Shown here one piece after another: positions 3,561-31,779 of a DNA stretch of 64,000 nt. The DNA comes from Pythium myriotylum (lineage: Eukaryota > Oomycota > Peronosporomycetes > Pythiales > Pythiaceae). Below the pieces are notes generated by a model, which saw nothing but the letters and a program-made list of their open reading frames with translations, had not been told where the DNA came from and searched no databases. The DNA is taken from assembly GCA_023091665.1 (NCBI GenBank), contig JALJCQ010000021.1, positions 348,596 to 412,595 of the forward strand, written 5' to 3'. The translations under genes were made by a program, and so were the position numbers. Numbering within the stretch: the first letter of the stretch is position 1; every line of letters starts with the position of its first letter.

Positions 3561-4069
3561 TTCAAGTCTCCACATCGCTCCTGCAAATCCGAGACCCCTT
3601 GCGATGGCCCGTCGGCTGTAGCACGAGTCATTCTCCGTTGCAATTGATAGGACGCAAAATTAGGCCACCGCAAAGTCCAACCGATTTTCCAACCAATTTT
3701 CCTGGCGTACCTTTGCGAATCATAACAACGCTTTGTCATCTCTTCTTGTCGTTTTCGCCAGGAGAAGGCCCATACAACCGGGCTTGATGACCACGAACAA
3801 TCCAGTAGAATCAAACAACTGCATAACGTCTGACAGATCCATAACGTCTGACAGATCCCATCGCAGATGCGATTCTATAGGACACAGATGCGACTGGTAA
3901 CTTTGAAATATTCCACGAAGGTCGTGTGGGAGTACATATTCACCACGAGCTACGTAGTAATGGACGAGAAGGTATAAATCATAAAATCCATCAAGTGTGA
4001 TTCAAACGACATAATCTACCGATGCGAGTCGGTCAGCTCCTGAGAGAATACTATTAGCGCTAGAGCAAC

Positions 4070-4864: not shown

Positions 4865-4901
4865 GTTGTGTGTGTGTGTGTGTGGAGCTTGGTGGTTTGC
4901 T

Positions 4902-4920
4902 GGTAAATTGCAAAGTGAGA
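4902..4920 (-). promoter_or_regulatory. Oomycete Inr + flanking core promoter
   Basis: TCTCACTTTGCAATTTACC on the minus strand, about 40 bp upstream of the ATG at 4864, nearly identical to the promoters at 33804, 35991 and 38702. Confidence 0.7.
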
Positions 4921-6318: not shown

Positions 6319-7089
6319 ACGGCCCTCGCGAATGCCGCTCAGGCCGCCGATATCAACCCGCTCATCCTCGGTGGCACCGTCGTCCCGGTCGGACAGAAGC
6401 AATACACCGTTACGCTACGCAGCGAGGCCACCGACAGTGATGAAGTCTGCGGCGGCACGCTCATCTCGCCAACGCACGTGCTCACGGCGGCCCACTGCCA
6501 AGGCTTCGCGAACTACGTCTCCATTGGCTCGCACTACCTGACTGGCGCCACTGACGGTGAGCGCATTGCGGTCAAGAAGGAGACCCCGCACCCGCGTTTC
6601 AACGAGGGAGCCACATCCAAGAAGGACACGCTCACCTACGACTACAACATCCTCGAGCTCGCCTCGCCGTCCAAGTACACGCCGATCAAGCTCTACTCGG
6701 CTGACTCGGAGACCTTCGTCGGCGCCACCGCGACCGTCATGGGCTGGGGTACCACCATCGCCGGTGTCGACTCGAGCCTCTCAAGCGTGCTTCGCCGCGT
6801 CAACGTGCCCGTCAAGTCGGACGCACAATGCAAGGCCGCCAAGATCCAGGGCAACCTCGGCGGCATCTCGGCCACCATGTTCTGTGCCGGTGGTGCTTCT
6901 AACAAGGACTCGTGCCAGGGCGACTCGGGCGGACCGCTCATCCTTGAGCAGACGACGGGCGACGTGCTTATCGGTGTCGTCTCGTGGGGCGAGGGCTGTG
7001 GTACGGCGGGCAAGCCGGGTGTCTACTCGAAGGTGTCGTACGCCAAGAGCTGGATCCAGTCGCTTGCGCCGAACGCCACGTGGGTGTAA
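6319..7089 (+). pseudogene. 5'-truncated trypsin-like protease
   Basis: From AQAADINPL to the stop at 7089 the frame matches the protease at 4070-4864, including His, Asp and Ser. Upstream of codon AQA the sequence jumps to what lies far 5' of the intact twin: the stretch CAATCATCTCGTGAACG at about 6306-6322 matches the twin's upstream DNA near 4955-4970. So promoter, leader, ATG and most of the signal peptide are missing. A TGA at 6316-6318 closes the frame with no ATG before the mature domain. It cannot be secreted as it stands and is probably dead. Confidence 0.85.
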
Positions 7090-7189
7090 GTTGCTCTAGC
7101 GCTAATAGTATTCTCTCAGGAGCCGACCGACTCGCATCGGTAGATTATGTCGTTTGAATCACACTGGATGGATTTTCTGATTCATATAT

Positions 7190-7587: not shown

Positions 7588-7885
7588 TGTAAGACAGGCA
7601 GAGGACTGGAGAGGAGAGGAACTTGAGCACACGATGGGAAATGCGAAAGTGAACGTTTATTGAAAACGCTCCAAGACATGCAGAGCTACCAACAGCTTCC
7701 TAGGGCACTCTCTCTCTGTACTCTACTGGCTTCGGCATCGAACCTTCGAGAACGGGCTCAACTAGACCATGTTGCAGTTGCTGTTGCAGTTCTGAGCCGG
7801 GGCATCTGATTCAACATTGAGCCGGGCACTGAGCCAGGACACCATGGAGCCAGTGAACCGACCTGTCCTTGCACCAGGTCTTACA
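7588..7885 (-). repeat. Copia-1 3' LTR
   Basis: 298 bp, TG...CA boundaries, matching 12190-12487 with no difference seen by eye; target duplication CCTCT directly outside. Confidence 0.93.
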
Positions 7886-7892
7886 CTCCCCC

Positions 7893-10800: not shown

Positions 10801-12164
10801 ACACTCATCTTCCTGTACATGCAGCCATCACATGGCCCGTCCGAGCTCGACGGCGGGAGTGGCAGCACACCGACCGCGACACGGTCCATCGCGGCGACTC
10901 GATCAAAGGCCACATGGCCCAACCGAGCATGCCACACCGCAAGATCGGCGAGACCGGCATCCGCTGCGTTCGCTTCCTCGGCGACTAGGTGCGCCACAGT
11001 CGCAACGTTGAGCACATAGAGCTTCCCGACCCGGCGACCGCTCGCGATCATGCGACCGTTGTGCAAAATCGTGCACGTCCCTTCACTAAAGTGCACGTCG
11101 GCGCCTTTTGCTGTCAGCGCCGAGATCGAGAGCAAACGTCGGTCCAAGCCTGGGATGTACAGCACGTCGGTCACCACCACCGACTGCTCATTCTCGAGCA
11201 TGAGCCGAACCGACCCAGTTCCACACACTGGGAGACGCTGACCGCTGGCGACCAGCACATTCAACCCACCAGGGATTGGACGAAACTCGTCAAAGTCTTC
11301 ACGTCGAAAGGTCATGTGCGAACTGGCGCCACTGTCAAGCAGCCACATCCGCATCGGATCGATATCATTCGACACCGAAGAGACAAAAGGTTCCGACTCC
11401 TTCTTCTTGCTCGGACATTGGGCGCGCTTGTGGCCGACCTCACCACACTCGTAGCAGCGACCCGCAAATTTGCTCTTCTCGCCTTGATCATGACCGCGTT
11501 TTTTGCCGTTCTGGCCGCCCTTGTTGCGTCGCCCGTGGTTGCCGCCACGGCGCACGCGTCCTTGGCCATTGCTCGTGACACTCGCCTTGAATGCCGCTTC
11601 CTGCTTCTCGCGCTTCTGGAGGGCTTCATACTCGCGGCGTAGCACTTCCTTGACCTCGTAGAGATCCATGTTGCCGCGCGCCTCAATGATCTTGACAATG
11701 GCATCATACTCAGCCGTAAGGCTACCGAGCAAGATGACCAAGCGCTCGTCATCCTTGATCTCGTCGCCGACCGCCGACAGACGGAGACACAAGTCATCAA
11801 ACTTGAGCAGGTGGTCCATGATTTTGTCGCCGGGGACCATCACAAACTCATCCAGTTGCTTGCGGAGCGACACGCGGTTGTGGAGACTACGCCTTACATG
11901 GAACTCGCGCAGAATGATCCACGCCTCGGCGGCGCTTCTCGCGTTCCGGATCATCGACTGGTACACTGGTCCGAGCAGACTGACGATGATGGCCAGCGCC
12001 TTCAAATCGTCCGACTTCCATTGGTCGCTGGCCGCAGCCATCGCGTTCTCGGGCTTCATCTCGAGGTGGCCGTGCAGACCCTTCTTGGCGAGCTTCATGC
12101 GAGCACCAAACTCCCAAAGGAAGTAGTTCTCGTCGGCGAGGATCTCGTTGGCGTTGGTCGACAT
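7893..12164 (-). CDS. Copia-type Gag-Pol polyprotein (Copia-1)
   Basis: A 1423-aa polyprotein from the ATG at 12164. The frame continues upstream through the primer site, so the ATG at 12185 is possible but would overlap it. In order: Gag of the UBN2 type; zinc knuckle CX2CX4HX4C (CYECGEVGHKRAQC, about 236-249); aspartic protease DSGASSH (about 275); integrase HHCC (HARLGHV ... CDGCMYRK) and DDE residues (HGDLMGP, RTDNGGEF near 538, VERANRS); reverse transcriptase with YVDDLL (about 1098); RNase H with DANWGGD and AESEYMAL (about 1308). Integrase before RT is the Copia order. No stop or frameshift, which suggests a functional element. Confidence 0.95.
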   Translation of the reverse strand: MSTNANEILADENYFLWEFGARMKLAKKGLHGHLEMKPENAMAAASDQWKSDDLKALAIIVSLLGPVYQSMIRNARSAAEAWIILREFHVRRSLHNRVSLRKQLDEFVMVPGDKIMDHLLKFDDLCLRLSAVGDEIKDDERLVILLGSLTAEYDAIVKIIEARGNMDLYEVKEVLRREYEALQKREKQEAAFKASVTSNGQGRVRRGGNHGRRNKGGQNGKKRGHDQGEKSKFAGRCYECGEVGHKRAQCPSKKKESEPFVSSVSNDIDPMRMWLLDSGASSHMTFRREDFDEFRPIPGGLNVLVASGQRLPVCGTGSVRLMLENEQSVVVTDVLYIPGLDRRLLSISALTAKGADVHFSEGTCTILHNGRMIASGRRVGKLYVLNVATVAHLVAEEANAADAGLADLAVWHARLGHVAFDRVAAMDRVAVGVLPLPPSSSDGPCDGCMYRKMSVAKYARTSGSTVKSSGLLDLIHGDLMGPMRVKSKGGARFVLVLVDDWSRYTTVYLLKVKSETFTKFKEYKAFMEAHLGRRIKIFRTDNGGEFCSKKFDTFCSTNSILHQTSAPYSPQQNGLVERANRSLAESARASLHYQAVDEDFWGEAIMTAAYCLNRLPNTARDDTTPFEVMWGRKPDVEHMRAFGSHGFVYVDESKRKKFDAKAHRCIFLGYADGSKAYRVWNLETGRIVVTRTIALDERPRSGLIPASSIEPVQLQWTVNDDDDVVAASAPAETNVEMEVEDMDNLDQPMEVPLPPSPPATAAPTTNIVARNTSQSVPNTSTQPMGAARGAPALPRPAPQVLPALENLRPIMRRDPPRIAQEGENAMVFGGQFAAIRPQMATVARPTQAPLALPPPPPGEDRLVHWSGQAQTSAAATTSYSDDDEPDPKRLRLTDGYEIALAVMEIPTTYREAMASPQADEWKEAVRRELRSHFRNHTWEAVRRPDGVRLVGTKWVFDVKRDGDGNIVRYKARLVAQGFRQVYGVDYWETYAPVSSLNSVRAFLALCCQRDYVIRQLDVETAFLNGPLDEDVFMRPPEGIHLPDGMICKLRRSIYGLKQAAAVWHKTIVNVLKSMGFVACLSDPCVFVRRTDDHTVYLVLYVDDLLIGCPSSIEAESIKSDLAKHFTLKDLGDARYVLGIEMDYDREAGTLYLCQSQFIARLVQKFGQETAYATKNPNVYGQRLHEFNDGERVESKRFRELIGSLLYIASGTRPDICVSICELSQYLEMPTQAHMKAAVRVLRYLKGTSKVGICYQRGDLAVFVPTVFVDANWGGDATTRRSTSGVLVLMAGASVVYKSKRQRTVALSSAESEYMALSLAAQETLWLRHLLEELGFRNLPATTIKMDNKAAIAMAERVGYQSRAKHIDLRYHFVRDAVNDGVLRLEYVPSAEQQADFMTKALPTPQFAKLVRSAGIVDDSPVSQ

Positions 12165-12177
12165 GGCGTTAGGGCTT

Positions 12178-12189
12178 GGGCTCATAACC
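12178..12189 (-). promoter_or_regulatory. Copia-1 primer-binding site (initiator-Met half-tRNA)
   Basis: The 12 bases directly abutting the 5' LTR read GGGCTCATAACC on the plus strand, which is the anticodon stem-loop (CAT anticodon) of eukaryotic initiator tRNA-Met. The element strand is therefore complementary to the tRNA middle, not its CCA end. This matches the half-tRNA priming known for Drosophila copia. Confidence 0.75.
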
Positions 12190-12487
12190 TGTAAGACAGG
12201 CAGAGGACTGGAGAGGAGAGGAACTTGAGCACACGATGGGAAATGCGAAAGTGAACGTTTATTGAAAACGCTCCAAGACATGCAGAGCTACCAACAGCTT
12301 CCTAGGGCACTCTCTCTCTGTACTCTACTGGCTTCGGCATCGAACCTTCGAGAACGGGCTCAACTAGACCATGTTGCAGTTGCTGTTGCAGTTCTGAGCC
12401 GGGGCATCTGATTCAACATTGAGCCGGGCACTGAGCCAGGACACCATGGAGCCAGTGAACCGACCTGTCCTTGCACCAGGTCTTACA
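12190..12487 (-). repeat. Copia-1 5' LTR
   Basis: 298 bp, same sequence as 7588-7885; followed on the plus strand by the second CCTCT. Confidence 0.93.
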
Positions 12488-12492
12488 CCTCT

Positions 12493-14488: not shown

Positions 14489-15752
14489 CTGTATGCACTC
14501 GTGATCTCTCTGTCAAAGCACAAGGAGCCTGATTGCGAGTGGAGACCTGCAAAGTTTGCTATGCATGGATTGTGACCTCGGGTGGTTTGCGGTTGTTTCC
14601 TGACAATTCTTTCGACTGTGAATCGCTTCTGGAGGCTTCTGTGGAGGCTTCTGTGGTCATTCAGGTCCATCGTCCACCTCCGGGACCAGTGGATGCCCAG
14701 GATAATTCCCGAAACCAAGGGTACTCACCCACGAAGACGTGGACACTTTTATGCCCCTTAATCAGATCCTGTCTGCACGGCCTATCCACTCCGGTAAATT
14801 TCCATGGCCGAAGAAGACTGTCTTTCTTATTTTCCCAAGACAAATGCATATGATATGCATTTGTCTTGGGAAAATAAGAAAGACAGTCTTCGGCATATGC
14901 AGCATATGCCGAAGTTTGGTGTTAGAAAACGTACTGACTATCTGATAACCCAGGATGGTGTTGGGTGTGGACTGGAAACAGCAACTCCCACCAACATACA
15001 TATCGCAAGACCGCAACACCTCATGTACGCTGAAGACAGGTAATCAGAATACTGATCGCTGACTGACAGACACGAGATCAACTGAATGGACCATACAGTC
15101 ACGTGATGGACACCGTGCAGTTGCTGATCAAGATCTATAATTGAAATGAATGCTGCAAATCAATGCGATCTGGGAGCACCAATCCGTGTTTTAGAAGTGT
15201 ACAGACATTAGTTTTCCAGTCTTTTCGGCTGAAAGATTGATGCAAAATACAGTCGATAGAAAGCGACGGCGCTTTGAAGCCTTCTGACTTCACGCCTCGT
15301 GCGTTACATTTCAACCTGTTCTTGTGATGAGACAAACGAGGCGGTTTCTGACATCACCTCAGGCAAGTCACGAACCTGTCATGATTGTTTCACCGAGAAA
15401 CCGGAAACTGGCCACCGACAAAGTTCGATCGACAAGCTTTCGTATATATGCACTCCACTCCATGCTGCATCAATGAAAACCATCAAAACTCTGTTCCTTA
15501 AAAAAAAATAAGAAAAGAATACTAGTACAGTGTACGTATGCTTTTCGGTTACCTGTTCGACTAATCAGTCGAGTATCTTCTAAGGACAGACACCGTCTGT
15601 GTGGTTTGTGTGGTTCAACCACAAGCCAAACGGGCCATGCAGTTCGCTGACAGGTTCAAACTTTACGCAATGCCACTGGATTTAGGATCTAATGCTTCGT
15701 CAATTACTCACTTCTATATCTCATAAGCATCGCTCACTTACCGATTTCTTGC
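14489..15752. other. Intergenic region with hairpin, no gene recognised
   Basis: Contains the perfect hairpin at 14813-14891 and the left arm of the array-flanking inverted repeat near 15707-15733. No open frame here has a recognisable domain. Confidence 0.5.
14813..14891. repeat. Perfect 39-bp-arm hairpin
   Basis: GAAGACTGTCTTTC... reads into its exact reverse complement around a single central base at 14852. It is followed by a second small palindrome (CTTCGGCATATGC / GCATATGCCGAAG, 14887-14913). Its near-zero loop suggests a snap-back product or a MITE-like relic. The flanks show no obvious target duplication. Confidence 0.85.
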
Positions 15753-15810
15753 CCACAATAGAGGCGCGCTGCCTATGAGATATCGATGCTTATGAGATAT
15801 AGAAGTGAGT
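15707..15810. repeat. Inverted repeat at the left edge of the 922-bp array
   Basis: ACTCACTTCTATATCTCATAAGCATCG (15707-15733) is the reverse complement of 15783-15809. The first arm lies outside the array; the second lies in the start of unit 1 and recurs in every unit. The intervening bases include the array start CCACAATAGAGG at 15753. Confidence 0.8.
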
Positions 15811-15959
15811 AGCTACATTGTACGAATCAACGTTCTCGCCACCAAACGGTTGATGCATGGAGAAAAAAGGCGACGGGGACGGCTTCACTAATATGTACTG
15901 TCAGGGACTTCGCACACTCGGCAAATTTCAGCCTCCTCACCAAGTAACCGATTCAAGCC

Positions 15960-16175
15960 ATGAAGACCGCCGCTGCCCTCCTCGCTGTCAGCGCCGCTCT
16001 CACAAACGCTCAGACTGCCGACATCAATCCCCTAATTCTTGGCGGCACCGTCGTCCCGTCCGGCACGAAAACCTACACCGTCAGTCTCCGCAGGTCGGCG
16101 TCGGGCTCCACCATGTGCGGTGGAACACTCATCACATCACGCAAATATTCGGGCACTTCCTCGCCAAGATGTTGA
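15960..16175 (+). pseudogene. Truncated protease in unit 1: 71-aa secreted-type protein
   Basis: The frame starts exactly like the intact gene at 26102: signal peptide 1-17, pro-stretch, ILGG mature start, and the first strands up to CGGTLIT. It then runs 13 codons into foreign DNA and ends at a TGA. No triad residue is present, so it cannot be a protease. The upstream 206 bp are the same as for the intact gene, so it could be transcribed and secreted as a roughly 50-aa peptide containing two Cys. Identical copies lie at 16882-17097, 17804-18019, 18726-18941, 19648-19863, 20570-20785, 21492-21707, 22414-22629, 23336-23551, 24258-24473 and 25180-25395. Confidence 0.8.
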
Positions 16176-16226
16176 CCCAGATAGGGGAAGTACTTGGAGA
16201 GGGAAACAAGTTATGAGAGGTTTTTA

Positions 16227-16550
16227 TCAGTAGCATTGAATGGAAATGAGGTGGGGAGGGAGATGGTACATTCGCGTAGGAATTGGGGGTGGCAGGTTAT
16301 GGGTGAGTGGACCCCTTTGGCGGAGCCGCTGGCGAGTCTTCCTCCACTTGGAGATGAGAGAACGTACCGAGCTCCTTCTCTCCGGCGCAATGTGCGAGAA
16401 GAAGGTGACGATGGTGAGGTCGACAGACGCAGCAAACGCGTAGTGCTGTATGACAGCGAGCTTGAAGTCGTACGTGTACTGCATCCTCTTGTACCGTCGA
16501 GGGCGGGCGTGCTTGCCCTTGATGCTCGTTCGTCCTTGGCGGATCGCCAT
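16227..16550 (-). pseudogene. Partial transposase-like HTH protein in unit 1
   Basis: A 107-aa minus-strand frame from the ATG at 16550. Residues of the type YTYDFKLAVIQHY ... APERRSSVRSLISKWRKTR look like the N-terminal helix-turn-helix of a CENP-B/Tigger- or Tc1-like transposase. No DDE domain follows, so it is a 5' fragment. It converges on the truncated protease upstream of it in the unit. Repeated at +922-bp steps: 17149-17472, 18071-18394, 18993-19316, 19915-20238, 20837-21160, 21759-22082, 22681-23004, 23603-23926, 24525-24848 and 25447-25770. The family assignment is tentative. Confidence 0.5.
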
Positions 16551-16674
16551 GGTGTCAAAATGAACTCCAGAACCACTCGCTCGACAGGTGACATTGGAGC
16601 GGGGGAGGCTGCCCGTCATTGTTTTGAGTGAACGAATCTGTAATTTTGGCATTTTAGCACGCAGAAAAAAAGCA

Positions 16675-19600
16675 CCACAATAGAGGCGCGCTGCCTATGA
16701 GATATCGATGCTTATGAGATATAGAAGTGAGTAGCTACATTGTACGAATCAACGTTCTCGCCACCAAACGGTTGATGCATGGAGAAAAAAGGCGACGGGG
16801 ACGGCTTCACTAATATGTACTGTCAGGGACTTCGCACACTCGGCAAATTTCAGCCTCCTCACCAAGTAACCGATTCAAGCCATGAAGACCGCCGCTGCCC
16901 TCCTCGCTGTCAGCGCCGCTCTCACAAACGCTCAGACTGCCGACATCAATCCCCTAATTCTTGGCGGCACCGTCGTCCCGTCCGGCACGAAAACCTACAC
17001 CGTCAGTCTCCGCAGGTCGGCGTCGGGCTCCACCATGTGCGGTGGAACACTCATCACATCACGCAAATATTCGGGCACTTCCTCGCCAAGATGTTGACCC
17101 AGATAGGGGAAGTACTTGGAGAGGGAAACAAGTTATGAGAGGTTTTTATCAGTAGCATTGAATGGAAATGAGGTGGGGAGGGAGATGGTACATTCGCGTA
17201 GGAATTGGGGGTGGCAGGTTATGGGTGAGTGGACCCCTTTGGCGGAGCCGCTGGCGAGTCTTCCTCCACTTGGAGATGAGAGAACGTACCGAGCTCCTTC
17301 TCTCCGGCGCAATGTGCGAGAAGAAGGTGACGATGGTGAGGTCGACAGACGCAGCAAACGCGTAGTGCTGTATGACAGCGAGCTTGAAGTCGTACGTGTA
17401 CTGCATCCTCTTGTACCGTCGAGGGCGGGCGTGCTTGCCCTTGATGCTCGTTCGTCCTTGGCGGATCGCCATGGTGTCAAAATGAACTCCAGAACCACTC
17501 GCTCGACAGGTGACATTGGAGCGGGGGAGGCTGCCCGTCATTGTTTTGAGTGAACGAATCTGTAATTTTGGCATTTTAGCACGCAGAAAAAAAGCACCAC
17601 AATAGAGGCGCGCTGCCTATGAGATATCGATGCTTATGAGATATAGAAGTGAGTAGCTACATTGTACGAATCAACGTTCTCGCCACCAAACGGTTGATGC
17701 ATGGAGAAAAAAGGCGACGGGGACGGCTTCACTAATATGTACTGTCAGGGACTTCGCACACTCGGCAAATTTCAGCCTCCTCACCAAGTAACCGATTCAA
17801 GCCATGAAGACCGCCGCTGCCCTCCTCGCTGTCAGCGCCGCTCTCACAAACGCTCAGACTGCCGACATCAATCCCCTAATTCTTGGCGGCACCGTCGTCC
17901 CGTCCGGCACGAAAACCTACACCGTCAGTCTCCGCAGGTCGGCGTCGGGCTCCACCATGTGCGGTGGAACACTCATCACATCACGCAAATATTCGGGCAC
18001 TTCCTCGCCAAGATGTTGACCCAGATAGGGGAAGTACTTGGAGAGGGAAACAAGTTATGAGAGGTTTTTATCAGTAGCATTGAATGGAAATGAGGTGGGG
18101 AGGGAGATGGTACATTCGCGTAGGAATTGGGGGTGGCAGGTTATGGGTGAGTGGACCCCTTTGGCGGAGCCGCTGGCGAGTCTTCCTCCACTTGGAGATG
18201 AGAGAACGTACCGAGCTCCTTCTCTCCGGCGCAATGTGCGAGAAGAAGGTGACGATGGTGAGGTCGACAGACGCAGCAAACGCGTAGTGCTGTATGACAG
18301 CGAGCTTGAAGTCGTACGTGTACTGCATCCTCTTGTACCGTCGAGGGCGGGCGTGCTTGCCCTTGATGCTCGTTCGTCCTTGGCGGATCGCCATGGTGTC
18401 AAAATGAACTCCAGAACCACTCGCTCGACAGGTGACATTGGAGCGGGGGAGGCTGCCCGTCATTGTTTTGAGTGAACGAATCTGTAATTTTGGCATTTTA
18501 GCACGCAGAAAAAAAGCACCACAATAGAGGCGCGCTGCCTATGAGATATCGATGCTTATGAGATATAGAAGTGAGTAGCTACATTGTACGAATCAACGTT
18601 CTCGCCACCAAACGGTTGATGCATGGAGAAAAAAGGCGACGGGGACGGCTTCACTAATATGTACTGTCAGGGACTTCGCACACTCGGCAAATTTCAGCCT
18701 CCTCACCAAGTAACCGATTCAAGCCATGAAGACCGCCGCTGCCCTCCTCGCTGTCAGCGCCGCTCTCACAAACGCTCAGACTGCCGACATCAATCCCCTA
18801 ATTCTTGGCGGCACCGTCGTCCCGTCCGGCACGAAAACCTACACCGTCAGTCTCCGCAGGTCGGCGTCGGGCTCCACCATGTGCGGTGGAACACTCATCA
18901 CATCACGCAAATATTCGGGCACTTCCTCGCCAAGATGTTGACCCAGATAGGGGAAGTACTTGGAGAGGGAAACAAGTTATGAGAGGTTTTTATCAGTAGC
19001 ATTGAATGGAAATGAGGTGGGGAGGGAGATGGTACATTCGCGTAGGAATTGGGGGTGGCAGGTTATGGGTGAGTGGACCCCTTTGGCGGAGCCGCTGGCG
19101 AGTCTTCCTCCACTTGGAGATGAGAGAACGTACCGAGCTCCTTCTCTCCGGCGCAATGTGCGAGAAGAAGGTGACGATGGTGAGGTCGACAGACGCAGCA
19201 AACGCGTAGTGCTGTATGACAGCGAGCTTGAAGTCGTACGTGTACTGCATCCTCTTGTACCGTCGAGGGCGGGCGTGCTTGCCCTTGATGCTCGTTCGTC
19301 CTTGGCGGATCGCCATGGTGTCAAAATGAACTCCAGAACCACTCGCTCGACAGGTGACATTGGAGCGGGGGAGGCTGCCCGTCATTGTTTTGAGTGAACG
19401 AATCTGTAATTTTGGCATTTTAGCACGCAGAAAAAAAGCACCACAATAGAGGCGCGCTGCCTATGAGATATCGATGCTTATGAGATATAGAAGTGAGTAG
19501 CTACATTGTACGAATCAACGTTCTCGCCACCAAACGGTTGATGCATGGAGAAAAAAGGCGACGGGGACGGCTTCACTAATATGTACTGTCAGGGACTTCG

Positions 19601-22600
19601 CACACTCGGCAAATTTCAGCCTCCTCACCAAGTAACCGATTCAAGCCATGAAGACCGCCGCTGCCCTCCTCGCTGTCAGCGCCGCTCTCACAAACGCTCA
19701 GACTGCCGACATCAATCCCCTAATTCTTGGCGGCACCGTCGTCCCGTCCGGCACGAAAACCTACACCGTCAGTCTCCGCAGGTCGGCGTCGGGCTCCACC
19801 ATGTGCGGTGGAACACTCATCACATCACGCAAATATTCGGGCACTTCCTCGCCAAGATGTTGACCCAGATAGGGGAAGTACTTGGAGAGGGAAACAAGTT
19901 ATGAGAGGTTTTTATCAGTAGCATTGAATGGAAATGAGGTGGGGAGGGAGATGGTACATTCGCGTAGGAATTGGGGGTGGCAGGTTATGGGTGAGTGGAC
20001 CCCTTTGGCGGAGCCGCTGGCGAGTCTTCCTCCACTTGGAGATGAGAGAACGTACCGAGCTCCTTCTCTCCGGCGCAATGTGCGAGAAGAAGGTGACGAT
20101 GGTGAGGTCGACAGACGCAGCAAACGCGTAGTGCTGTATGACAGCGAGCTTGAAGTCGTACGTGTACTGCATCCTCTTGTACCGTCGAGGGCGGGCGTGC
20201 TTGCCCTTGATGCTCGTTCGTCCTTGGCGGATCGCCATGGTGTCAAAATGAACTCCAGAACCACTCGCTCGACAGGTGACATTGGAGCGGGGGAGGCTGC
20301 CCGTCATTGTTTTGAGTGAACGAATCTGTAATTTTGGCATTTTAGCACGCAGAAAAAAAGCACCACAATAGAGGCGCGCTGCCTATGAGATATCGATGCT
20401 TATGAGATATAGAAGTGAGTAGCTACATTGTACGAATCAACGTTCTCGCCACCAAACGGTTGATGCATGGAGAAAAAAGGCGACGGGGACGGCTTCACTA
20501 ATATGTACTGTCAGGGACTTCGCACACTCGGCAAATTTCAGCCTCCTCACCAAGTAACCGATTCAAGCCATGAAGACCGCCGCTGCCCTCCTCGCTGTCA
20601 GCGCCGCTCTCACAAACGCTCAGACTGCCGACATCAATCCCCTAATTCTTGGCGGCACCGTCGTCCCGTCCGGCACGAAAACCTACACCGTCAGTCTCCG
20701 CAGGTCGGCGTCGGGCTCCACCATGTGCGGTGGAACACTCATCACATCACGCAAATATTCGGGCACTTCCTCGCCAAGATGTTGACCCAGATAGGGGAAG
20801 TACTTGGAGAGGGAAACAAGTTATGAGAGGTTTTTATCAGTAGCATTGAATGGAAATGAGGTGGGGAGGGAGATGGTACATTCGCGTAGGAATTGGGGGT
20901 GGCAGGTTATGGGTGAGTGGACCCCTTTGGCGGAGCCGCTGGCGAGTCTTCCTCCACTTGGAGATGAGAGAACGTACCGAGCTCCTTCTCTCCGGCGCAA
21001 TGTGCGAGAAGAAGGTGACGATGGTGAGGTCGACAGACGCAGCAAACGCGTAGTGCTGTATGACAGCGAGCTTGAAGTCGTACGTGTACTGCATCCTCTT
21101 GTACCGTCGAGGGCGGGCGTGCTTGCCCTTGATGCTCGTTCGTCCTTGGCGGATCGCCATGGTGTCAAAATGAACTCCAGAACCACTCGCTCGACAGGTG
21201 ACATTGGAGCGGGGGAGGCTGCCCGTCATTGTTTTGAGTGAACGAATCTGTAATTTTGGCATTTTAGCACGCAGAAAAAAAGCACCACAATAGAGGCGCG
21301 CTGCCTATGAGATATCGATGCTTATGAGATATAGAAGTGAGTAGCTACATTGTACGAATCAACGTTCTCGCCACCAAACGGTTGATGCATGGAGAAAAAA
21401 GGCGACGGGGACGGCTTCACTAATATGTACTGTCAGGGACTTCGCACACTCGGCAAATTTCAGCCTCCTCACCAAGTAACCGATTCAAGCCATGAAGACC
21501 GCCGCTGCCCTCCTCGCTGTCAGCGCCGCTCTCACAAACGCTCAGACTGCCGACATCAATCCCCTAATTCTTGGCGGCACCGTCGTCCCGTCCGGCACGA
21601 AAACCTACACCGTCAGTCTCCGCAGGTCGGCGTCGGGCTCCACCATGTGCGGTGGAACACTCATCACATCACGCAAATATTCGGGCACTTCCTCGCCAAG
21701 ATGTTGACCCAGATAGGGGAAGTACTTGGAGAGGGAAACAAGTTATGAGAGGTTTTTATCAGTAGCATTGAATGGAAATGAGGTGGGGAGGGAGATGGTA
21801 CATTCGCGTAGGAATTGGGGGTGGCAGGTTATGGGTGAGTGGACCCCTTTGGCGGAGCCGCTGGCGAGTCTTCCTCCACTTGGAGATGAGAGAACGTACC
21901 GAGCTCCTTCTCTCCGGCGCAATGTGCGAGAAGAAGGTGACGATGGTGAGGTCGACAGACGCAGCAAACGCGTAGTGCTGTATGACAGCGAGCTTGAAGT
22001 CGTACGTGTACTGCATCCTCTTGTACCGTCGAGGGCGGGCGTGCTTGCCCTTGATGCTCGTTCGTCCTTGGCGGATCGCCATGGTGTCAAAATGAACTCC
22101 AGAACCACTCGCTCGACAGGTGACATTGGAGCGGGGGAGGCTGCCCGTCATTGTTTTGAGTGAACGAATCTGTAATTTTGGCATTTTAGCACGCAGAAAA
22201 AAAGCACCACAATAGAGGCGCGCTGCCTATGAGATATCGATGCTTATGAGATATAGAAGTGAGTAGCTACATTGTACGAATCAACGTTCTCGCCACCAAA
22301 CGGTTGATGCATGGAGAAAAAAGGCGACGGGGACGGCTTCACTAATATGTACTGTCAGGGACTTCGCACACTCGGCAAATTTCAGCCTCCTCACCAAGTA
22401 ACCGATTCAAGCCATGAAGACCGCCGCTGCCCTCCTCGCTGTCAGCGCCGCTCTCACAAACGCTCAGACTGCCGACATCAATCCCCTAATTCTTGGCGGC
22501 ACCGTCGTCCCGTCCGGCACGAAAACCTACACCGTCAGTCTCCGCAGGTCGGCGTCGGGCTCCACCATGTGCGGTGGAACACTCATCACATCACGCAAAT

Positions 22601-25600
22601 ATTCGGGCACTTCCTCGCCAAGATGTTGACCCAGATAGGGGAAGTACTTGGAGAGGGAAACAAGTTATGAGAGGTTTTTATCAGTAGCATTGAATGGAAA
22701 TGAGGTGGGGAGGGAGATGGTACATTCGCGTAGGAATTGGGGGTGGCAGGTTATGGGTGAGTGGACCCCTTTGGCGGAGCCGCTGGCGAGTCTTCCTCCA
22801 CTTGGAGATGAGAGAACGTACCGAGCTCCTTCTCTCCGGCGCAATGTGCGAGAAGAAGGTGACGATGGTGAGGTCGACAGACGCAGCAAACGCGTAGTGC
22901 TGTATGACAGCGAGCTTGAAGTCGTACGTGTACTGCATCCTCTTGTACCGTCGAGGGCGGGCGTGCTTGCCCTTGATGCTCGTTCGTCCTTGGCGGATCG
23001 CCATGGTGTCAAAATGAACTCCAGAACCACTCGCTCGACAGGTGACATTGGAGCGGGGGAGGCTGCCCGTCATTGTTTTGAGTGAACGAATCTGTAATTT
23101 TGGCATTTTAGCACGCAGAAAAAAAGCACCACAATAGAGGCGCGCTGCCTATGAGATATCGATGCTTATGAGATATAGAAGTGAGTAGCTACATTGTACG
23201 AATCAACGTTCTCGCCACCAAACGGTTGATGCATGGAGAAAAAAGGCGACGGGGACGGCTTCACTAATATGTACTGTCAGGGACTTCGCACACTCGGCAA
23301 ATTTCAGCCTCCTCACCAAGTAACCGATTCAAGCCATGAAGACCGCCGCTGCCCTCCTCGCTGTCAGCGCCGCTCTCACAAACGCTCAGACTGCCGACAT
23401 CAATCCCCTAATTCTTGGCGGCACCGTCGTCCCGTCCGGCACGAAAACCTACACCGTCAGTCTCCGCAGGTCGGCGTCGGGCTCCACCATGTGCGGTGGA
23501 ACACTCATCACATCACGCAAATATTCGGGCACTTCCTCGCCAAGATGTTGACCCAGATAGGGGAAGTACTTGGAGAGGGAAACAAGTTATGAGAGGTTTT
23601 TATCAGTAGCATTGAATGGAAATGAGGTGGGGAGGGAGATGGTACATTCGCGTAGGAATTGGGGGTGGCAGGTTATGGGTGAGTGGACCCCTTTGGCGGA
23701 GCCGCTGGCGAGTCTTCCTCCACTTGGAGATGAGAGAACGTACCGAGCTCCTTCTCTCCGGCGCAATGTGCGAGAAGAAGGTGACGATGGTGAGGTCGAC
23801 AGACGCAGCAAACGCGTAGTGCTGTATGACAGCGAGCTTGAAGTCGTACGTGTACTGCATCCTCTTGTACCGTCGAGGGCGGGCGTGCTTGCCCTTGATG
23901 CTCGTTCGTCCTTGGCGGATCGCCATGGTGTCAAAATGAACTCCAGAACCACTCGCTCGACAGGTGACATTGGAGCGGGGGAGGCTGCCCGTCATTGTTT
24001 TGAGTGAACGAATCTGTAATTTTGGCATTTTAGCACGCAGAAAAAAAGCACCACAATAGAGGCGCGCTGCCTATGAGATATCGATGCTTATGAGATATAG
24101 AAGTGAGTAGCTACATTGTACGAATCAACGTTCTCGCCACCAAACGGTTGATGCATGGAGAAAAAAGGCGACGGGGACGGCTTCACTAATATGTACTGTC
24201 AGGGACTTCGCACACTCGGCAAATTTCAGCCTCCTCACCAAGTAACCGATTCAAGCCATGAAGACCGCCGCTGCCCTCCTCGCTGTCAGCGCCGCTCTCA
24301 CAAACGCTCAGACTGCCGACATCAATCCCCTAATTCTTGGCGGCACCGTCGTCCCGTCCGGCACGAAAACCTACACCGTCAGTCTCCGCAGGTCGGCGTC
24401 GGGCTCCACCATGTGCGGTGGAACACTCATCACATCACGCAAATATTCGGGCACTTCCTCGCCAAGATGTTGACCCAGATAGGGGAAGTACTTGGAGAGG
24501 GAAACAAGTTATGAGAGGTTTTTATCAGTAGCATTGAATGGAAATGAGGTGGGGAGGGAGATGGTACATTCGCGTAGGAATTGGGGGTGGCAGGTTATGG
24601 GTGAGTGGACCCCTTTGGCGGAGCCGCTGGCGAGTCTTCCTCCACTTGGAGATGAGAGAACGTACCGAGCTCCTTCTCTCCGGCGCAATGTGCGAGAAGA
24701 AGGTGACGATGGTGAGGTCGACAGACGCAGCAAACGCGTAGTGCTGTATGACAGCGAGCTTGAAGTCGTACGTGTACTGCATCCTCTTGTACCGTCGAGG
24801 GCGGGCGTGCTTGCCCTTGATGCTCGTTCGTCCTTGGCGGATCGCCATGGTGTCAAAATGAACTCCAGAACCACTCGCTCGACAGGTGACATTGGAGCGG
24901 GGGAGGCTGCCCGTCATTGTTTTGAGTGAACGAATCTGTAATTTTGGCATTTTAGCACGCAGAAAAAAAGCACCACAATAGAGGCGCGCTGCCTATGAGA
25001 TATCGATGCTTATGAGATATAGAAGTGAGTAGCTACATTGTACGAATCAACGTTCTCGCCACCAAACGGTTGATGCATGGAGAAAAAAGGCGACGGGGAC
25101 GGCTTCACTAATATGTACTGTCAGGGACTTCGCACACTCGGCAAATTTCAGCCTCCTCACCAAGTAACCGATTCAAGCCATGAAGACCGCCGCTGCCCTC
25201 CTCGCTGTCAGCGCCGCTCTCACAAACGCTCAGACTGCCGACATCAATCCCCTAATTCTTGGCGGCACCGTCGTCCCGTCCGGCACGAAAACCTACACCG
25301 TCAGTCTCCGCAGGTCGGCGTCGGGCTCCACCATGTGCGGTGGAACACTCATCACATCACGCAAATATTCGGGCACTTCCTCGCCAAGATGTTGACCCAG
25401 ATAGGGGAAGTACTTGGAGAGGGAAACAAGTTATGAGAGGTTTTTATCAGTAGCATTGAATGGAAATGAGGTGGGGAGGGAGATGGTACATTCGCGTAGG
25501 AATTGGGGGTGGCAGGTTATGGGTGAGTGGACCCCTTTGGCGGAGCCGCTGGCGAGTCTTCCTCCACTTGGAGATGAGAGAACGTACCGAGCTCCTTCTC

Positions 25601-25894
25601 TCCGGCGCAATGTGCGAGAAGAAGGTGACGATGGTGAGGTCGACAGACGCAGCAAACGCGTAGTGCTGTATGACAGCGAGCTTGAAGTCGTACGTGTACT
25701 GCATCCTCTTGTACCGTCGAGGGCGGGCGTGCTTGCCCTTGATGCTCGTTCGTCCTTGGCGGATCGCCATGGTGTCAAAATGAACTCCAGAACCACTCGC
25801 TCGACAGGTGACATTGGAGCGGGGGAGGCTGCCCGTCATTGTTTTGAGTGAACGAATCTGTAATTTTGGCATTTTAGCACGCAGAAAAAAAGCA
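16675..25894 (+). repeat. Units 2-11 of the 922-bp array
   Basis: Ten further head-to-tail units with the same content as unit 1: truncated secreted protease N-terminus on the plus strand, HTH fragment on the minus strand. The between-unit junction reads AAAAAAAGCACCACAATAGAGG, whereas the first unit is preceded by TTTCTTGC, which locates the repeat start at about 15753. Confidence 0.93.
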
Positions 25895-26101
25895 CCACAA
25901 TAGAGGCGCGCTGCCTATGAGATATCGATGCTTATGAGATATAGAAGTGAGTAGCTACATTGTACGAATCAACGTTCTCGCCACCAAACGGTTGATGCAT
26001 GGAGAAAAAAGGCGACGGGGACGGCTTCACTAATATGTACTGTCAGGGACTTCGCACACTCGGCAAATTTCAGCCTCCTCACCAAGTAACCGATTCAAGC
26101 C

Positions 26102-26890
26102 ATGAAGACCGCCGCTGCCCTCCTCGCTGTCAGCGCCGCTCTCACAAACGCTCAGACTGCCGACATCAATCCCCTAATTCTTGGCGGCACCGTCGTCCCG
26201 TCCGGCACGAAAACCTACACCGTCAGTCTCCGCAGGTCGGCGTCGGGCTCCACCATGTGCGGTGGAACACTCATCACACCCACTCGCGTGCTCACTGCCG
26301 GTCACTGCAAAGGCTTGGGCAAGTTCGTCTCCATCGGATCCCACTTCTCCAGCGGTTCCACAGATGACGAGCGTATTGCTGTAGTCAAAGAAACTGTGCA
26401 CCCGCGCTTTAACGAAGGCACCAAGAACCCTGGCATCGATGACACCCTTGTGTTCGACTACAGCATGCTTGAATTGGCCTCGCCCTCCAAGTTCAAGCCG
26501 GCCCCGCTGCTTGCAGCCAACACGGACATTCTCGCGGGCCAGACTGCGACCGTCATGGGCTGGGGTGCCACCTCGCAGGGCGGCGCAGGCTCACGCGAGT
26601 TGCTTCGCGTAGACGTCGATATCAAAACGACAGCGCAGTGCAAAGCCGCAGGCTTGCCCCTCGCGTTCACAGAGTCGATGTTCTGCGCTGGTGGCATCCG
26701 CAACAAGGACTCGTGCCAAGGTGACTCCGGCGGACCGCTCATCCTCGAGCGCCCGACGGGCGATGCACTCATTGGAGTTGTGTCATGGGGTGATGGTTGT
26801 GGCGTGGCGGGCAAGCCGGGCGTGTACTCGCGTGTGTCGTTTGCGCGCAGCTGGATCGACGGTCTCGCCTCAAACGTCACCTGGATCTAA
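26102..26890 (+). CDS. Secreted trypsin-like serine protease ending the tandem array
   Basis: A 262-aa protease with signal peptide 1-17, pro-stretch ADINPL after a Thr, ILGG start, His in LTAGHC, Asp in VFDYSMLEL, Ser in GDSGGP, S1 Asp in KDSCQGDSGG, and C-terminal sequon NVTWI. Its first 384 bp, from 206 bp upstream of the ATG to codon 59, are the sequence amplified in the array, so it is the parent gene or the last unit. It has no clean CTCACTTTGCAATTT promoter; CGGCAAATTTCAGCC at about 26060-26075 is the nearest flanking-element match. Amplified DA and LAANTD-type loops link it to the 27708/30366 twins. Confidence 0.93.
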   Translation: MKTAAALLAVSAALTNAQTADINPLILGGTVVPSGTKTYTVSLRRSASGSTMCGGTLITPTRVLTAGHCKGLGKFVSIGSHFSSGSTDDERIAVVKETVHPRFNEGTKNPGIDDTLVFDYSMLELASPSKFKPAPLLAANTDILAGQTATVMGWGATSQGGAGSRELLRVDVDIKTTAQCKAAGLPLAFTESMFCAGGIRNKDSCQGDSGGPLILERPTGDALIGVVSWGDGCGVAGKPGVYSRVSFARSWIDGLASNVTWI

Positions 26891-27595
26891 GTTGAAGTAT
26901 CCACAAACGAGCATGCTACTCCGTACAAAACACGGGGAAGTCTCGCCCCCACACTGATTTGCGTTTAAAAAACGTTGATGTTTAAAAGTTTAGTGATTGC
27001 TCGTGCTTCTAAGGGGTGATCCCACTTGCGGTGTCATTGAACCTCTTCGCAAGCCAAATTTAATGCTACGGATGCTCACTAAACCCTTTATCGCGAGGCT
27101 CTACTTGCGTGTCTAATGGTCTGCTCAACAGCATGAATAATAGCGTAGTCCAATAGAGTTCATCGTCGAATTCAAAGGCAAGGCCAAGGTGAAGCGGCTA
27201 TGCGCGTGGCATATCAACCGCCGCGCAACCGAGATTCTCGGACGACCGTGAGGAGTCCCGAGACTAAAGGCACACCTTCCTCTACATACCTGTAATTCCT
27301 TAAAAAGGTGGTTTGACGCTATCAGGCCTTGATTTCTCGTCTGATTTTGTATCATTCGAGAATCTCGTGGTCTTTGAGAGCATCGTAGGCCACGAGGCGT
27401 CTTTCGAGTGGCAATGCCCGGTTGCCGAACGCTTCGATCCAGCATCCCAGCTATACTATTGATATTCGAGCAGCGTGTTGGACCGAAGAAGTGCATAGCA
27501 CATCTTTCCGAAAAATGCGAGTGTTGTGATATCGCTCCAAGCTGATCCAGACATATCCACCCTTCATCTTCAAAAAGAAGACAAACGCAAGTTGC
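26891..27595. other. Intergenic region with LINE-tail-like stretch
   Basis: TAGTCCAATAGAGTTCATCG at about 27146-27165 resembles the LINE 3' tail family. A 163-codon minus-strand frame (27125-27616) has no recognisable domain and overlaps the palindrome-3 boundary; I do not call it a gene. Confidence 0.4.
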
Positions 27596-27707
27596 TTTCC
27601 CATTAAGATAATTCAAACGCTACCGTATCAAGCAGACAGTACAGGCTGCCCGCCCTCGAAACATACTCGCTGACGAGTGAGGTGAGGTGCCGGAGACGAT
27701 CAAACGC

Positions 27708-28502
27708 TCACACCCACGTGACGTTCTTCGCGATGCCATCGATCCAGCTGCGAGCAAAGGACACACGCGAGTACACGCCCGGCTTGCCTGCTTGGCCGCA
27801 GCCCTGTCCCCAGGACACGATGCCGATGAGCGCGTCGCCCGTTGGGCGCTCGAGCACGAGTGGTCCACCCGAGTCGCCCTGGCACGAGTCCTTGTTGCGG
27901 ACGCCACCAGCACAGAACATGGTCTCGGTGAAGGTGATGGGGAAACCCGCCGCGAGGCACTGCGCGCGCGACTTGACCGTAACATCGACGCGGAGGAGCT
28001 CGCGCGAGGACGGCCCTTCCTCTGCCGTGGCGCCCCAGCCCAAGACCGTCGCGACCTGACCCGCGAGCGAGTCGGTGTTGGCAGCGAGCAGCGGCGCCGG
28101 TTTGAATTTGGAGGGCGAAGCAAGCTCGAAGATGCTGTAGTCGTAGGTGATGGTGTCGTCACGACCGGGGTTCTTGGTGCCCTCGTTGTAGCGTGGGTGG
28201 AGCGTCTCCCTCTTAATGGCGATGCGTTCGCCGTCGGTGGATCCGCTGATGAAGTGCGAGCCGATGGAGACGAAGTTGGCGAAGCCGCGGCAGTGAGCAG
28301 CCGTGAGCACGTGAGTCGGCGTGATGAGCGTGCCGCCGCAGCCGGTCTGGCTGGTGGCCGTGGAGCGGAGTCCGACCGTGTAGGTCTTGGTACCGGCTGG
28401 GACGACGGTGCCGCCGAGGATGAGGGGGTTGATGTCTGCGGCTTGCGCGTTGACGTTGGCGATGGCGGCGGTGGCGGCGAGAAGAGCGGCGGCGACCTTC
28501 AT
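27708..28502 (-). CDS. Secreted trypsin-like serine protease (left twin of palindrome 3)
   Basis: A 264-aa protease with signal peptide 1-20 (AIANVNAQA), pro-stretch ADINPL, ILGG mature start, His in LTAAHC, Asp in TYDYSIFEL, Ser in GDSGGP, S1 Asp in KDSCQGDSGG, and C-terminal sequon NVTWV. Closest in this window to 26102-26890 (shared FKPAPLLAANTD loop and ERPTGDALIG). The ATG at 28502 starts the signal peptide and follows a core promoter by about 45 bp. Confidence 0.93.
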   Translation of the reverse strand: MKVAAALLAATAAIANVNAQAADINPLILGGTVVPAGTKTYTVGLRSTATSQTGCGGTLITPTHVLTAAHCRGFANFVSIGSHFISGSTDGERIAIKRETLHPRYNEGTKNPGRDDTITYDYSIFELASPSKFKPAPLLAANTDSLAGQVATVLGWGATAEEGPSSRELLRVDVTVKSRAQCLAAGFPITFTETMFCAGGVRNKDSCQGDSGGPLVLERPTGDALIGIVSWGQGCGQAGKPGVYSRVSFARSWIDGIAKNVTWV

Positions 28503-28545
28503 GATTTGGTGAGGAGGTTTTGAGGAGCAGGAGGCCTGGTGGCTT

Positions 28546-28567
28546 GGCAGTGAAAATCAAAGTGAGT
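28546..28567 (-). promoter_or_regulatory. Oomycete Inr + flanking core promoter
   Basis: ACTCACTTTGATTTTCACTGCC on the minus strand; the Inr is intact and the flanking element is a variant (GATTTT for CAATTT). Confidence 0.6.
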
Positions 28568-28867
28568 GGTGAGTGGGGGAAACGTCGACGGCGGTGATGG
28601 CAAGTAGGTAGGGAGGCAGGAGGGCAGGAAGGAACGGTCGGTAATGGTTGGTGCAGATGGGGAGGTCTCTGTGACGCTCTCTGGTGATGGTCGGGTGACT
28701 CGACTGACTGTTCAGCGCTGTTCTATGGCAGCGTTTGTTGAGTGCTTGACGCGTTGTTTTGAGGAAGGTTGGCACTTGCATCCATTGAACTTGCATTCAT
28801 TGAATGACAGTGGACATTCTTTCAGCATGGCTCGTCGTTGACCTGCAGATTGCACATAAATCTGATT

Positions 28868-30000
28868 TCATCGCCCGTTCTATATCGAGGACTCAGTATT
28901 CGTCCACATTGATCATGGGTGTTTTCGCTCACGATGATCGTGTCACAGCATGTTCTGTGGAGATTATTATGACTGTTTTGTGTAGTTAACGATATTCTGG
29001 TCAAAACTGCAGTTGGGTTCGGTAGTATGGAGTCATCGGCCTCGGTCAGAGCCTCATTACAATAGGGGGGGGGGGGGGGGGGTCAACATCCCGAATCCCG
29101 ATAGACAACAGCGTAGAATCGTCCATCTTTTGGATCATAAACCTCCTACATACATAGCACAAGCACAATACTGTAGTATGTCCACAACATATGTTCAGGG
29201 TTTAGTACTGTACAGTATCCTCGGATCTCAGCAGTCGAGACTAACCATTCGTCTTCAAGTGAACCGTCGAGTCAAACCCTCGGTCCTGACCTATTACAAT
29301 ACAAGTCTAACATATGTGCGACATATCTGAGTTGTGGAGCGACGAAGGTGCTGTCCAGAATGCACGGGCTATGACTGATCTGTTTCGTCGATCTGGATCA
29401 GATTGAGAGCGACACTCACGATCGCAGAATGGCATGAACTAATTACTCGATAAAGAATTGAGTACGGTACATACTGTACCGTGCAAGAAAGGAGCTGAAC
29501 GATTCCCCGTTCTATTAGCAGTCGAAGCCGCTTTTTGCTATGATCTCCATCCTCACATACACACTAAATGCTCAAGATCGACGGCTGATCGCGCTCTATG
29601 CGTGTAGATCCGCAGATCCAGCTGCGCTATCGCAACTCAAGCACACATCCATTTCAATCTCGAGCGATGTCGCCCAAGAAATGGGACTGCTAGACGAGGG
29701 AATTGGTCCAGTATTAAAGGTGCTGTCCTATTGGTTTGTTTGGTCATTGTCACCTTGTAGATGATGATAAAGTCTATTGAGTTCAACCAGTAAAACCTAA
29801 TAGCTCGGCTCGGTTTCGACTTCTAGAGCTCAACGCTACTCAGGGGGGAAGTTGCAAGCCGCCGAAGCAGGTCGTTGTGTCATCACCTTGTACCGATGTC
29901 TGTCTGAGAGGCAGAATAAGATCAGATCCTTGGCGCGCTCCAGTAGCACCCTCTGTGCGAGATGCGTGACTTGGACAAATGCTAAGTATGCATCCAGTTT
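28868..30000. other. Spacer of palindrome 3
   Basis: Includes an 18-G run at 29065-29082 and a minus-strand LINE-tail-like segment at about 29764-29810 (AAGTCTATTGAGTTC ... CCTAATAGCTCG). Small frames here have no domain I recognise. Confidence 0.5.
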
Positions 30001-30300
30001 AATCAGATTTATGTGCAATCTGCAGGTCAACGACGAGCCATGCTGAAAGAATGTCCACTGTCATTCAATGAATGCAAGTTCAATGGATGCAAGTGCCAAC
30101 CTTCCTCAAAACAACGCGTCAAGCACTCAACAAACGCTGCCATAGAACAGCGCTGAACAGTCAGTCGAGTCACCCGACCATCACCAGAGAGCGTCACAGA
30201 GACCTCCCCATCTGCACCAACCATTACCGACCGTTCCTTCCTGCCCTCCTGCCTCCCTACCTACTTGCCATCACCGCCGTCGACGTTTCCCCCACTCACC

Positions 30301-30322
30301 ACTCACTTTGATTTTCACTGCC
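30301..30322 (+). promoter_or_regulatory. Oomycete Inr + flanking core promoter
   Basis: Mirror copy of 28546-28567, about 45 bp upstream of the ATG at 30366. Confidence 0.6.
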
Positions 30323-30365
30323 AAGCCACCAGGCCTCCTGCTCCTCAAAACCTCCTCACCAAATC

Positions 30366-31160
30366 ATGAAGGTCGCCGCCGCTCTTCTCGCCGCCACCGC
30401 CGCCATCGCCAACGTCAACGCGCAAGCCGCAGACATCAACCCCCTCATCCTCGGCGGCACCGTCGTCCCAGCCGGTACCAAGACCTACACGGTCGGACTC
30501 CGCTCCACGGCCACCAGCCAGACCGGCTGCGGCGGCACGCTCATCACGCCGACTCACGTGCTCACGGCTGCTCACTGCCGCGGCTTCGCCAACTTCGTCT
30601 CCATCGGCTCGCACTTCATCAGCGGATCCACCGACGGCGAACGCATCGCCATTAAGAGGGAGACGCTCCACCCACGCTACAACGAGGGCACCAAGAACCC
30701 CGGTCGTGACGACACCATCACCTACGACTACAGCATCTTCGAGCTTGCTTCGCCCTCCAAATTCAAACCGGCGCCGCTGCTCGCTGCCAACACCGACTCG
30801 CTCGCGGGTCAGGTCGCGACGGTCTTGGGCTGGGGCGCCACGGCAGAGGAAGGGCCGTCCTCGCGCGAGCTCCTCCGCGTCGATGTTACGGTCAAGTCGC
30901 GCGCGCAGTGCCTCGCGGCGGGTTTCCCCATCACCTTCACCGAGACCATGTTCTGTGCTGGTGGCGTCCGCAACAAGGACTCGTGCCAGGGCGACTCGGG
31001 TGGACCACTCGTGCTCGAGCGCCCAACGGGCGACGCGCTCATCGGCATCGTGTCCTGGGGACAGGGCTGCGGCCAAGCAGGCAAGCCGGGCGTGTACTCG
31101 CGTGTGTCCTTTGCTCGCAGCTGGATCGATGGCATCGCGAAGAACGTCACGTGGGTGTGA
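30366..31160 (+). CDS. Secreted trypsin-like serine protease (right twin of palindrome 3)
   Basis: A 264-aa protein identical to that of 27708-28502, transcribed away from it. The complete triad, S1 Asp and C-terminal NVTWV are kept. The 3' flank diverges from the twin right after the stop codon, so arm identity ends almost exactly at the coding boundary, as expected if gene conversion or selection maintains only the gene and its promoter. Confidence 0.93.
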   Translation: MKVAAALLAATAAIANVNAQAADINPLILGGTVVPAGTKTYTVGLRSTATSQTGCGGTLITPTHVLTAAHCRGFANFVSIGSHFISGSTDGERIAIKRETLHPRYNEGTKNPGRDDTITYDYSIFELASPSKFKPAPLLAANTDSLAGQVATVLGWGATAEEGPSSRELLRVDVTVKSRAQCLAAGFPITFTETMFCAGGVRNKDSCQGDSGGPLVLERPTGDALIGIVSWGQGCGQAGKPGVYSRVSFARSWIDGIAKNVTWV

Positions 31161-31254
31161 GCGGCACCGGCACCTGACTCGCGAGCGAGTACGATCCTAG
31201 AGCTGACAGCACGTGCTGCCTGCTTGATACAGTAGCGTTTGAATTATCTTAATG

Positions 31255-31779
31255 GGAAAACAGTTCTTGACGATGCAGAGGGGTTATGTACGGATCAGCA
31301 TGGACACAGATACCAGGACATCTGCATCTGTGATGGATAAGCGTGCTACATGCTTTTGCATCTCCATCGAGCTACTGCAAACGACTTCGATGTTGACTGT
31401 CGAAAAGATCGATAATTGGTGTTCCAATCGAAATACGCCTCGTATCTTGCTACTGCACGTACTGTAGCGTTCACGATTGTTTCTCGGGTCTTGAGATTCT
31501 CGACTGGCAAAGAACCGGTTGTGGACTATGAAAAACAACATGCCGAAATGTCACGGTCTTTGCCCGAAGGTCTGCTGGACTGTGCTGGGTTGGCGAAAGT
31601 TGACCGCCCAGGCACTTGGATAGGCCACATGGGTCAGTCAACGCACTGATCCTTTTCCTCGATTGAGCATCGCGTTATCAGATCGATTGATCGCTAGTGG
31701 ATGAGTTGAGTGAGGCGGTTCGACGCGACCACTCCCCACCAGACCATTTTCGATTTTATCACCTCTCGTTGCAGCGTCG
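31255..31779. other. Intergenic region, no gene recognised
   Basis: Two short overlapping frames (31252-31467 and 31416-31649) have no signal peptide or domain. The upstream region of the next protease relic lies at 31700-31779. Confidence 0.5.

Follow-up and report, generated by a model that had tools for sequence, protein, structure and literature searches.

Transposon DNA and the start of a protease gene in a probably young tandem array of Pythium myriotylum

A stretch of 64,000 nucleotides of the Pythium myriotylum genome (hereafter the window; C21:348596-412595 in an assembly of 58.7 Mb in 55 contigs) contains a 922-bp tandem array that leads into an intact trypsin-like serine protease gene. 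This array is probably a young one, derived from the boundary between a transposon and the gene by insertion of the transposon, duplication through end joining and expansion through unequal exchange. Comparison of the window with itself at a shift of 922 gives 9604 bp of match devoid of any mismatch (15753-25356 against 16675-26278), which confirms the period, coordinates, copy number and zero divergence reported in a first-pass annotation of this DNA; the final repeat does run into a complete gene, as also reported, the intact trypsin-like gene standing at the right end of the array. The array comprises 11 full identical units (15753-25894) followed by 384 bp (25895-26278), and its monomers are arranged head-to-tail as in young satellites. 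Chance is not in question as the source of such a repeat. The array is missing from the list produced by Tandem Repeats Finder because the longest period handled by this tool was 500.

The first-pass annotation had described the unit as a chimera of 384 bp of protease-derived sequence and 538 bp of unrelated foreign DNA. The protease-side portion amounts to 327 bp (15810-16136), with a TA target site at its start and the first 59 protease codons within it, as described; the 57 bp preceding it (15753-15809), by contrast, are the right end of a transposon. When the unit is placed in breakpoint phase, so that it starts at 16141, these 57 bp and the 538 bp form one continuous transposon end (16141-16731 in the first unit). 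This end is identical to a copy on C18 in 590 of 595 alignment columns, TA included (two mismatches and three gap columns), and closes with a 26-bp terminal inverted repeat ending 150 bp 5′ of the protease ATG. The supposed fusion point is uninterrupted in the copies on C18, C29 and C12, and for this reason the chimera was rejected as the simplest reading and the 538 bp can no longer be regarded as foreign. Most of the unit reads as a contiguous transposon end plus the adjoining 5′ end of the gene, with one new joint per unit. Since the 11 units show no difference among themselves, as opposed to five columns in 595 between the unit and C18, we infer that the expansion is recent or that unequal exchange has kept the units strongly homogenised.

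A search of the same genome with the 538-bp part returned 17 matches, of which 11 are the array copies and six lie elsewhere, the C18 copy being the best of these six. Family copies with a matching left end are found on C29 (667 bp), C12 (1122 bp), C18 (891 bp) and C1, where two copies of 103 bp (L073 and L074) lie in opposite orientation within identical 25-bp flanks; for two copies on C17, just one end was found in the stretches examined. The element ends are 26-bp inverted repeats, and TA is present on both sides of the leftmost copy in the window (15705/15810) and of the copies on C1, C29 and C12. Over 78 aa, the minus-strand frame of the window and the frame of the C12 copy are 91% identical, and the C12 frame in turn matches a frame on C20 at 45% identity. 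The latter carries HTH_Tnp_Tc5, the Tc5-type transposase DNA-binding domain, and shares 60% identity with a 360-aa protein (P0121) that has PF03221 and PF03184, which we take to be DDE_1. Because of this chain of frames from the window through C12 to C20, the element is classed here as pogo-like, and as seen here it is non-autonomous. An antisense helix-turn-helix frame had been annotated in the unit: the frame itself holds, as the N-terminal part of a transposase-like protein, but it has no Pfam match of its own and is linked to pogo/Tc5 only indirectly, via C12 and C20. The transposase-like frames of the window and of C12 match nothing in Pfam, the former not even at E up to 10, and a search for protein relatives of the window frame gave 78 candidates, none at E <= 0.001. 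About 220 bp of the C18-type element also occur on C22 (C22:1040581-1040800, L079; 90% identity). The inverted repeat of the family was not found in 3.2 kb around this C22 segment, which may represent host DNA captured by the transposon.

At the new joint, protease codon 59 (ACA) is followed by a TCAC filler and then by the transposon interior. A 25-base pattern of the joint, searched with up to two mismatches allowed, has 11 matches in the genome, and the same pattern read backwards, used as a control, has none; all 11 fall inside the array, and no dispersed copy of the joint was found elsewhere in the genome. The filler repeats a neighbouring TCAC, there is next to no microhomology, and the joint looks like the product of end joining with a templated insert. 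The transposon DNA after the filler begins at the last G of a tract as it stands in C18, where a poly-G (G7-A-G12) lies directly at the breakpoint; in C22 a similar tract (G10-A-G) adjoins it. According to passages of a study in C. elegans (PMC8654963), polymerase theta repairs breaks at G-quadruplex (G4) motifs, leaving templated insertions, and helq-1 mutants accumulate tandem duplications attributed to theta joining of aborted recombination; these passages do not state that the helq-1 duplications are located at G4 motifs. Long poly-G and poly-C tracts are frequent throughout the P. myriotylum genome (3219 and 3372 overlapping G 16-mers on the two strands).

The left edge of the array has a structure of its own. 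The first array copy is preceded by a 103-bp miniature element, and not by the left 300 bp of the transposon. In this miniature the left end is joined to the right end within subterminal direct repeats, and the short form on C1 has the same length with a different apparent crossover point, so that short forms probably arise repeatedly by internal deletion. An ectopic template switch would account for this edge differently: only a 103-bp element would have occupied the site, and an end broken at codon 59 would have become linked to a C18-like element at another site and, after copying the right end of that element, would have come back via the shared right end, amplification following afterwards. 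Such a switch agrees with the miniature nature of the leftmost copy and with the identity of the right end between C18 and the window, and it requires no later deletion. However, it demands an event involving two sites, and the C1 short form with its other crossover point shows how easily a later deletion could occur. We regard the template switch as rather unlikely, and favour a leftmost element that was once full and then shrank over one that was short from the start and obtained the rest from another copy.

The explanation that we prefer, a young array derived from the transposon–gene boundary, would proceed in four steps. A C18-type non-autonomous pogo-like element would first have inserted at a TA 150 bp 5′ of the protease ATG; the identity of the element and the TA flanks of the leftmost copy are observed, and its full length at this site is presumed. 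A break or stalled fork at the internal poly-G would then have led to a 922-bp tandem duplication, end-joined with the 4-base filler, a step in which the joint is observed and both the poly-G trigger and polymerase-theta-type joining are presumed. Unequal homologous exchange would have raised this joint to 11 identical copies, as the zero divergence suggests, and the leftmost element would have shrunk to 103 bp by recombination of its own subterminal repeats.

Several observations weigh against this scheme. The left flank of the C18 copy lacks TA, although all other ends of fully delimited copies are TA-flanked; the leftmost copy is a miniature; and the poly-G tract is absent from the window array, its former presence being deduced from relatives. 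Among the five other duplications in the window that are not long terminal repeats, a single one, of 1593 bp, has a G/C tract of at least 12 no more than 40 bp from an edge, the nearest edges of the other four lying 51, 198, 1406 and 3184 bp from such a tract. Finally, the unamplified locus is not seen in this genome. The left flank (14720-15704) is single-copy, matching only itself apart from a 79-bp stretch that matches its own reverse strand, and a search of this genome with it revealed no second haplotype devoid of the array.

The 1593-bp sequence is present twice (55314-58511), in copies that differ only in the length of a poly-C (C16 versus C26); their joint has 2 bp of microhomology and an edge of the duplication lies 36-37 bp from the G/C tract. 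Positions at a distance of 40 bp or less from a tract of at least 12 make up 1.1% of the window. With one of five other duplications near a tract, poly-G was dropped as a general trigger of duplication in the window, and for the same reason it is retained for the array as no more than a weakly supported candidate trigger.

The flanks of the array also bear on an assembly artefact, in which the true locus would contain one or a few units. Perfect 10-kb arrays are hard to assemble, which speaks for such an error, but collapse is a more usual assembly error than expansion. The left flank is single-copy and the right side is an intact gene, the size and contig number of the assembly suggest that long reads were used, and the joint itself would still have to come from somewhere. 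An artefact is held to be improbable. The coordinates of the array and its components are listed in Table 1.

Table 1. Components of the 922-bp array and adjoining features, in window coordinates
Feature	Position	Strand	Remarks
Miniature transposon of 103 bp (15707-15809) between TA duplications (15705-15706, 15810-15811)	15705..15811		26-bp inverted repeats; same length as C1 copies L073/L074
Tandem array with 922-bp unit	15753..26278	+	11 full units + 384 bp, zero differences in window self-comparison
First of 11 identical truncated frames, 71 aa	15960..16175	+	Stop codon within transposon DNA; catalytic histidine not reached
Transposon-internal segment, first unit	16141..16336	+	Recurs at C22 1040581-1040777 (93%); poly-G precedes it in C18 and C22
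Right part of putative pogo-like transposon, first unit	16337..16731	-	Minus-strand N-terminal transposase-like frame ~16550-16317; right terminal inverted repeat 16706-16731
TA site, 148 bp upstream region, ATG (16882) and 59 protease codons, first unit	16732..17058	+	Apparent signal peptide, by eye
4-base filler TCAC at new joint	17059..17062	+	First filler at 16137-16140
Intact trypsin-like serine protease, 262 aa	26102..26890	+	PF00089, E 5.3e-45; AGHC and GDSGGP (histidine, serine) motifs

The intact protease gene shows ratios of non-synonymous to synonymous substitution rates (dN/dS, computed with our own script) of 0.14-0.28 against five paralogues, two of which are near-identical inverted copies and gave identical values. 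A total of 2275 protein relatives were retrieved; among the best 120 of these, the closest is 64% identical and the highest-scoring relatives with a named organism are from oomycetes, for example Globisporangium, Phytophthora and Pythium, with one lower row from Drosophila. Each truncated frame consists of 59 protease codons, which include an apparent signal peptide recognized by eye, followed by 12 further residues and a stop, and contains neither the catalytic histidine nor the catalytic serine. The effect of the array is most likely neutral, since what its frames suggest is 11 dead gene beginnings 5′ of one working gene, and its copy number is probably unstable.

Six other gene starts in the window, some of which are near-identical copies of one another, carry TCACTTT at 52-63 bases 5′ of the ATG and, after it, an AT-rich block. 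This arrangement is like that of the INR and FPR motifs of Phytophthora infestans, for which the part of the source cited here places the start sites of 121 genes 32-144 nt 5′ of the ATG, with a median of 50 (PMC3599244). In the array copy an FPR-like block, GGCAAATTTC, persists ~45 bases before the ATG, whereas TCACTTT is missing. Multiplication of the promoter and secretion signal, as claimed in the first-pass annotation, is true of the DNA; any effect on expression would be hypothetical, and the array copy lacks the initiator-like motif. Under selected promoter amplification, the additional promoter copies would make the intact gene more strongly expressed. The same is suspected for gch1 of Plasmodium falciparum, whose promoter duplication is described in passages of PMC6547842 as near fixation in Malawi. 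Twelve copies of a region with the FPR-like block could be viewed in this way; yet every additional copy brings a start codon of its own with a stop soon after it, transposon DNA lies between these copies and the gene, and the TCACTTT of the six other gene starts is absent. Of all the alternatives, this is the one to which we give the least credence.

Another possibility is that the array acts as a silencer, in the manner of Su(Ste) in Drosophila melanogaster. Leftward transcription from the transposon ends would produce RNA antisense to the protease 5′ end, and RNA interference would thereby be aimed at the protease gene or at the transposon family. With protease promoters and transposon ends firing convergently, double-stranded RNA could form over each unit and damp both, and the array would constitute an independent Su(Ste)-like system in an oomycete; we consider this very improbable, for the silencer as for the convergent transcription it would entail. 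Counted with TCAYTYY, which we take to be the initiator consensus, the unit has three minus-strand initiator-like motifs and none on the plus strand; outside the array there are 21 on the minus and 37 on the plus strand in 53,474 bases, or 0.36 and 0.64 per unit length. However, this consensus is assumed and the unit was inspected after the fact. The genome encodes Argonaute, RNA-dependent RNA polymerase (RdRP) and RNase III frames, with four Piwi-domain matches on three contigs, one RdRP match and five RNase III matches in three frames (two of them with two domains); against this, RNase III is widespread, being found in the control rings of 8 of 14 genomes, these frames do not prove a Dicer, and the transposon family is small among the matches listed. 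Passages on Su(Ste) nevertheless describe the same geometry, namely gene fragments in tandem whose promoter holds a defective transposon (PMC7874207).

Beyond the array, trypsin-like protease genes form three almost perfect inverted duplications in the window (1-3087, 3973-7186 and 27593-31262), with arms 99.8, 98.2 and 97.6% identical and spacers of 0.6-1.5 kb. The right arm of the second starts at 6333, and the gene in it has no signal peptide start. The trypsin-like protease gene cluster extends over C21:253544-388072 and includes several pairs that score equally and lie in opposite orientation, which suggests additional inverted duplications. At 7588-12488 and 45655-50729 lie two retrotransposons whose domains are of copia type, with end repeats of 299 and 316 bp; the repeats at both ends of each are identical, so that these elements are probably recent insertions.

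If the array is real, it would offer a satellite-like array at its birth, with a near-identical relative of the source element, a single new joint and the source gene readable in one genome, together with a candidate trigger, a poly-G tract. The path from insertion through duplication to expansion could then be tested by comparison of isolates. The array would also serve as a natural experiment on the outcome of placing many copies of a promoter 5′ of a gene: nothing, more expression, or silencing.

Searches of the literature on promoter duplication and on tandem arrays gave no match, and titles and abstract openings retrieved for oomycete, tandem, promoter and trypsin mention no such array; wider absence is not claimed. 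Among known systems, pogo/Tc5-like transposons share with the element a TA target site, terminal inverted repeats and a distant transposase relative with HTH_Tnp_Tc5; unlike them, the copies found here carry only an N-terminal frame, and the C18 type has an insert shared with C22. The gch1 promoter duplication of P. falciparum, as described in passages of PMC6547842, is the nearest promoter-copying case found: there too a promoter region has been tandemly copied without the whole gene, but as a 436-bp duplication with suspected drug selection, whereas the array includes transposon DNA, a start codon and 59 codons in 12 copies. In Su(Ste), according to the portion of the source cited, antisense RNA is driven by a defective transposon that sits in the promoter of tandemly repeated gene fragments (PMC7874207). 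The array likewise has a defective transposon in the promoter of a tandem gene fragment homologous to an intact gene, yet it is contiguous with its target gene and contains 59 codons only, and antisense RNA from it is hypothetical. As a process, the formation of the array resembles the birth of a satellite from a transposon. A review describes, in the passages cited, satellite DNA born from miniature inverted-repeat transposable elements and other transposons (PMC9659126), in which tandem copies arise at a transposon end and are homogenised, as they appear to be here. The initial statement that the repeat is neither a gene family nor a satellite is thus half right, since the array fits this published picture of a young transposon-born satellite. 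In contrast to the satellites of these passages (PMC9659126), the unit here draws 327 of its 922 bp from the upstream region and coding start of a neighbouring gene, which stands intact at the end of the array: a transposon-borne tandem array has taken the promoter region and coding start of a gene into its unit.

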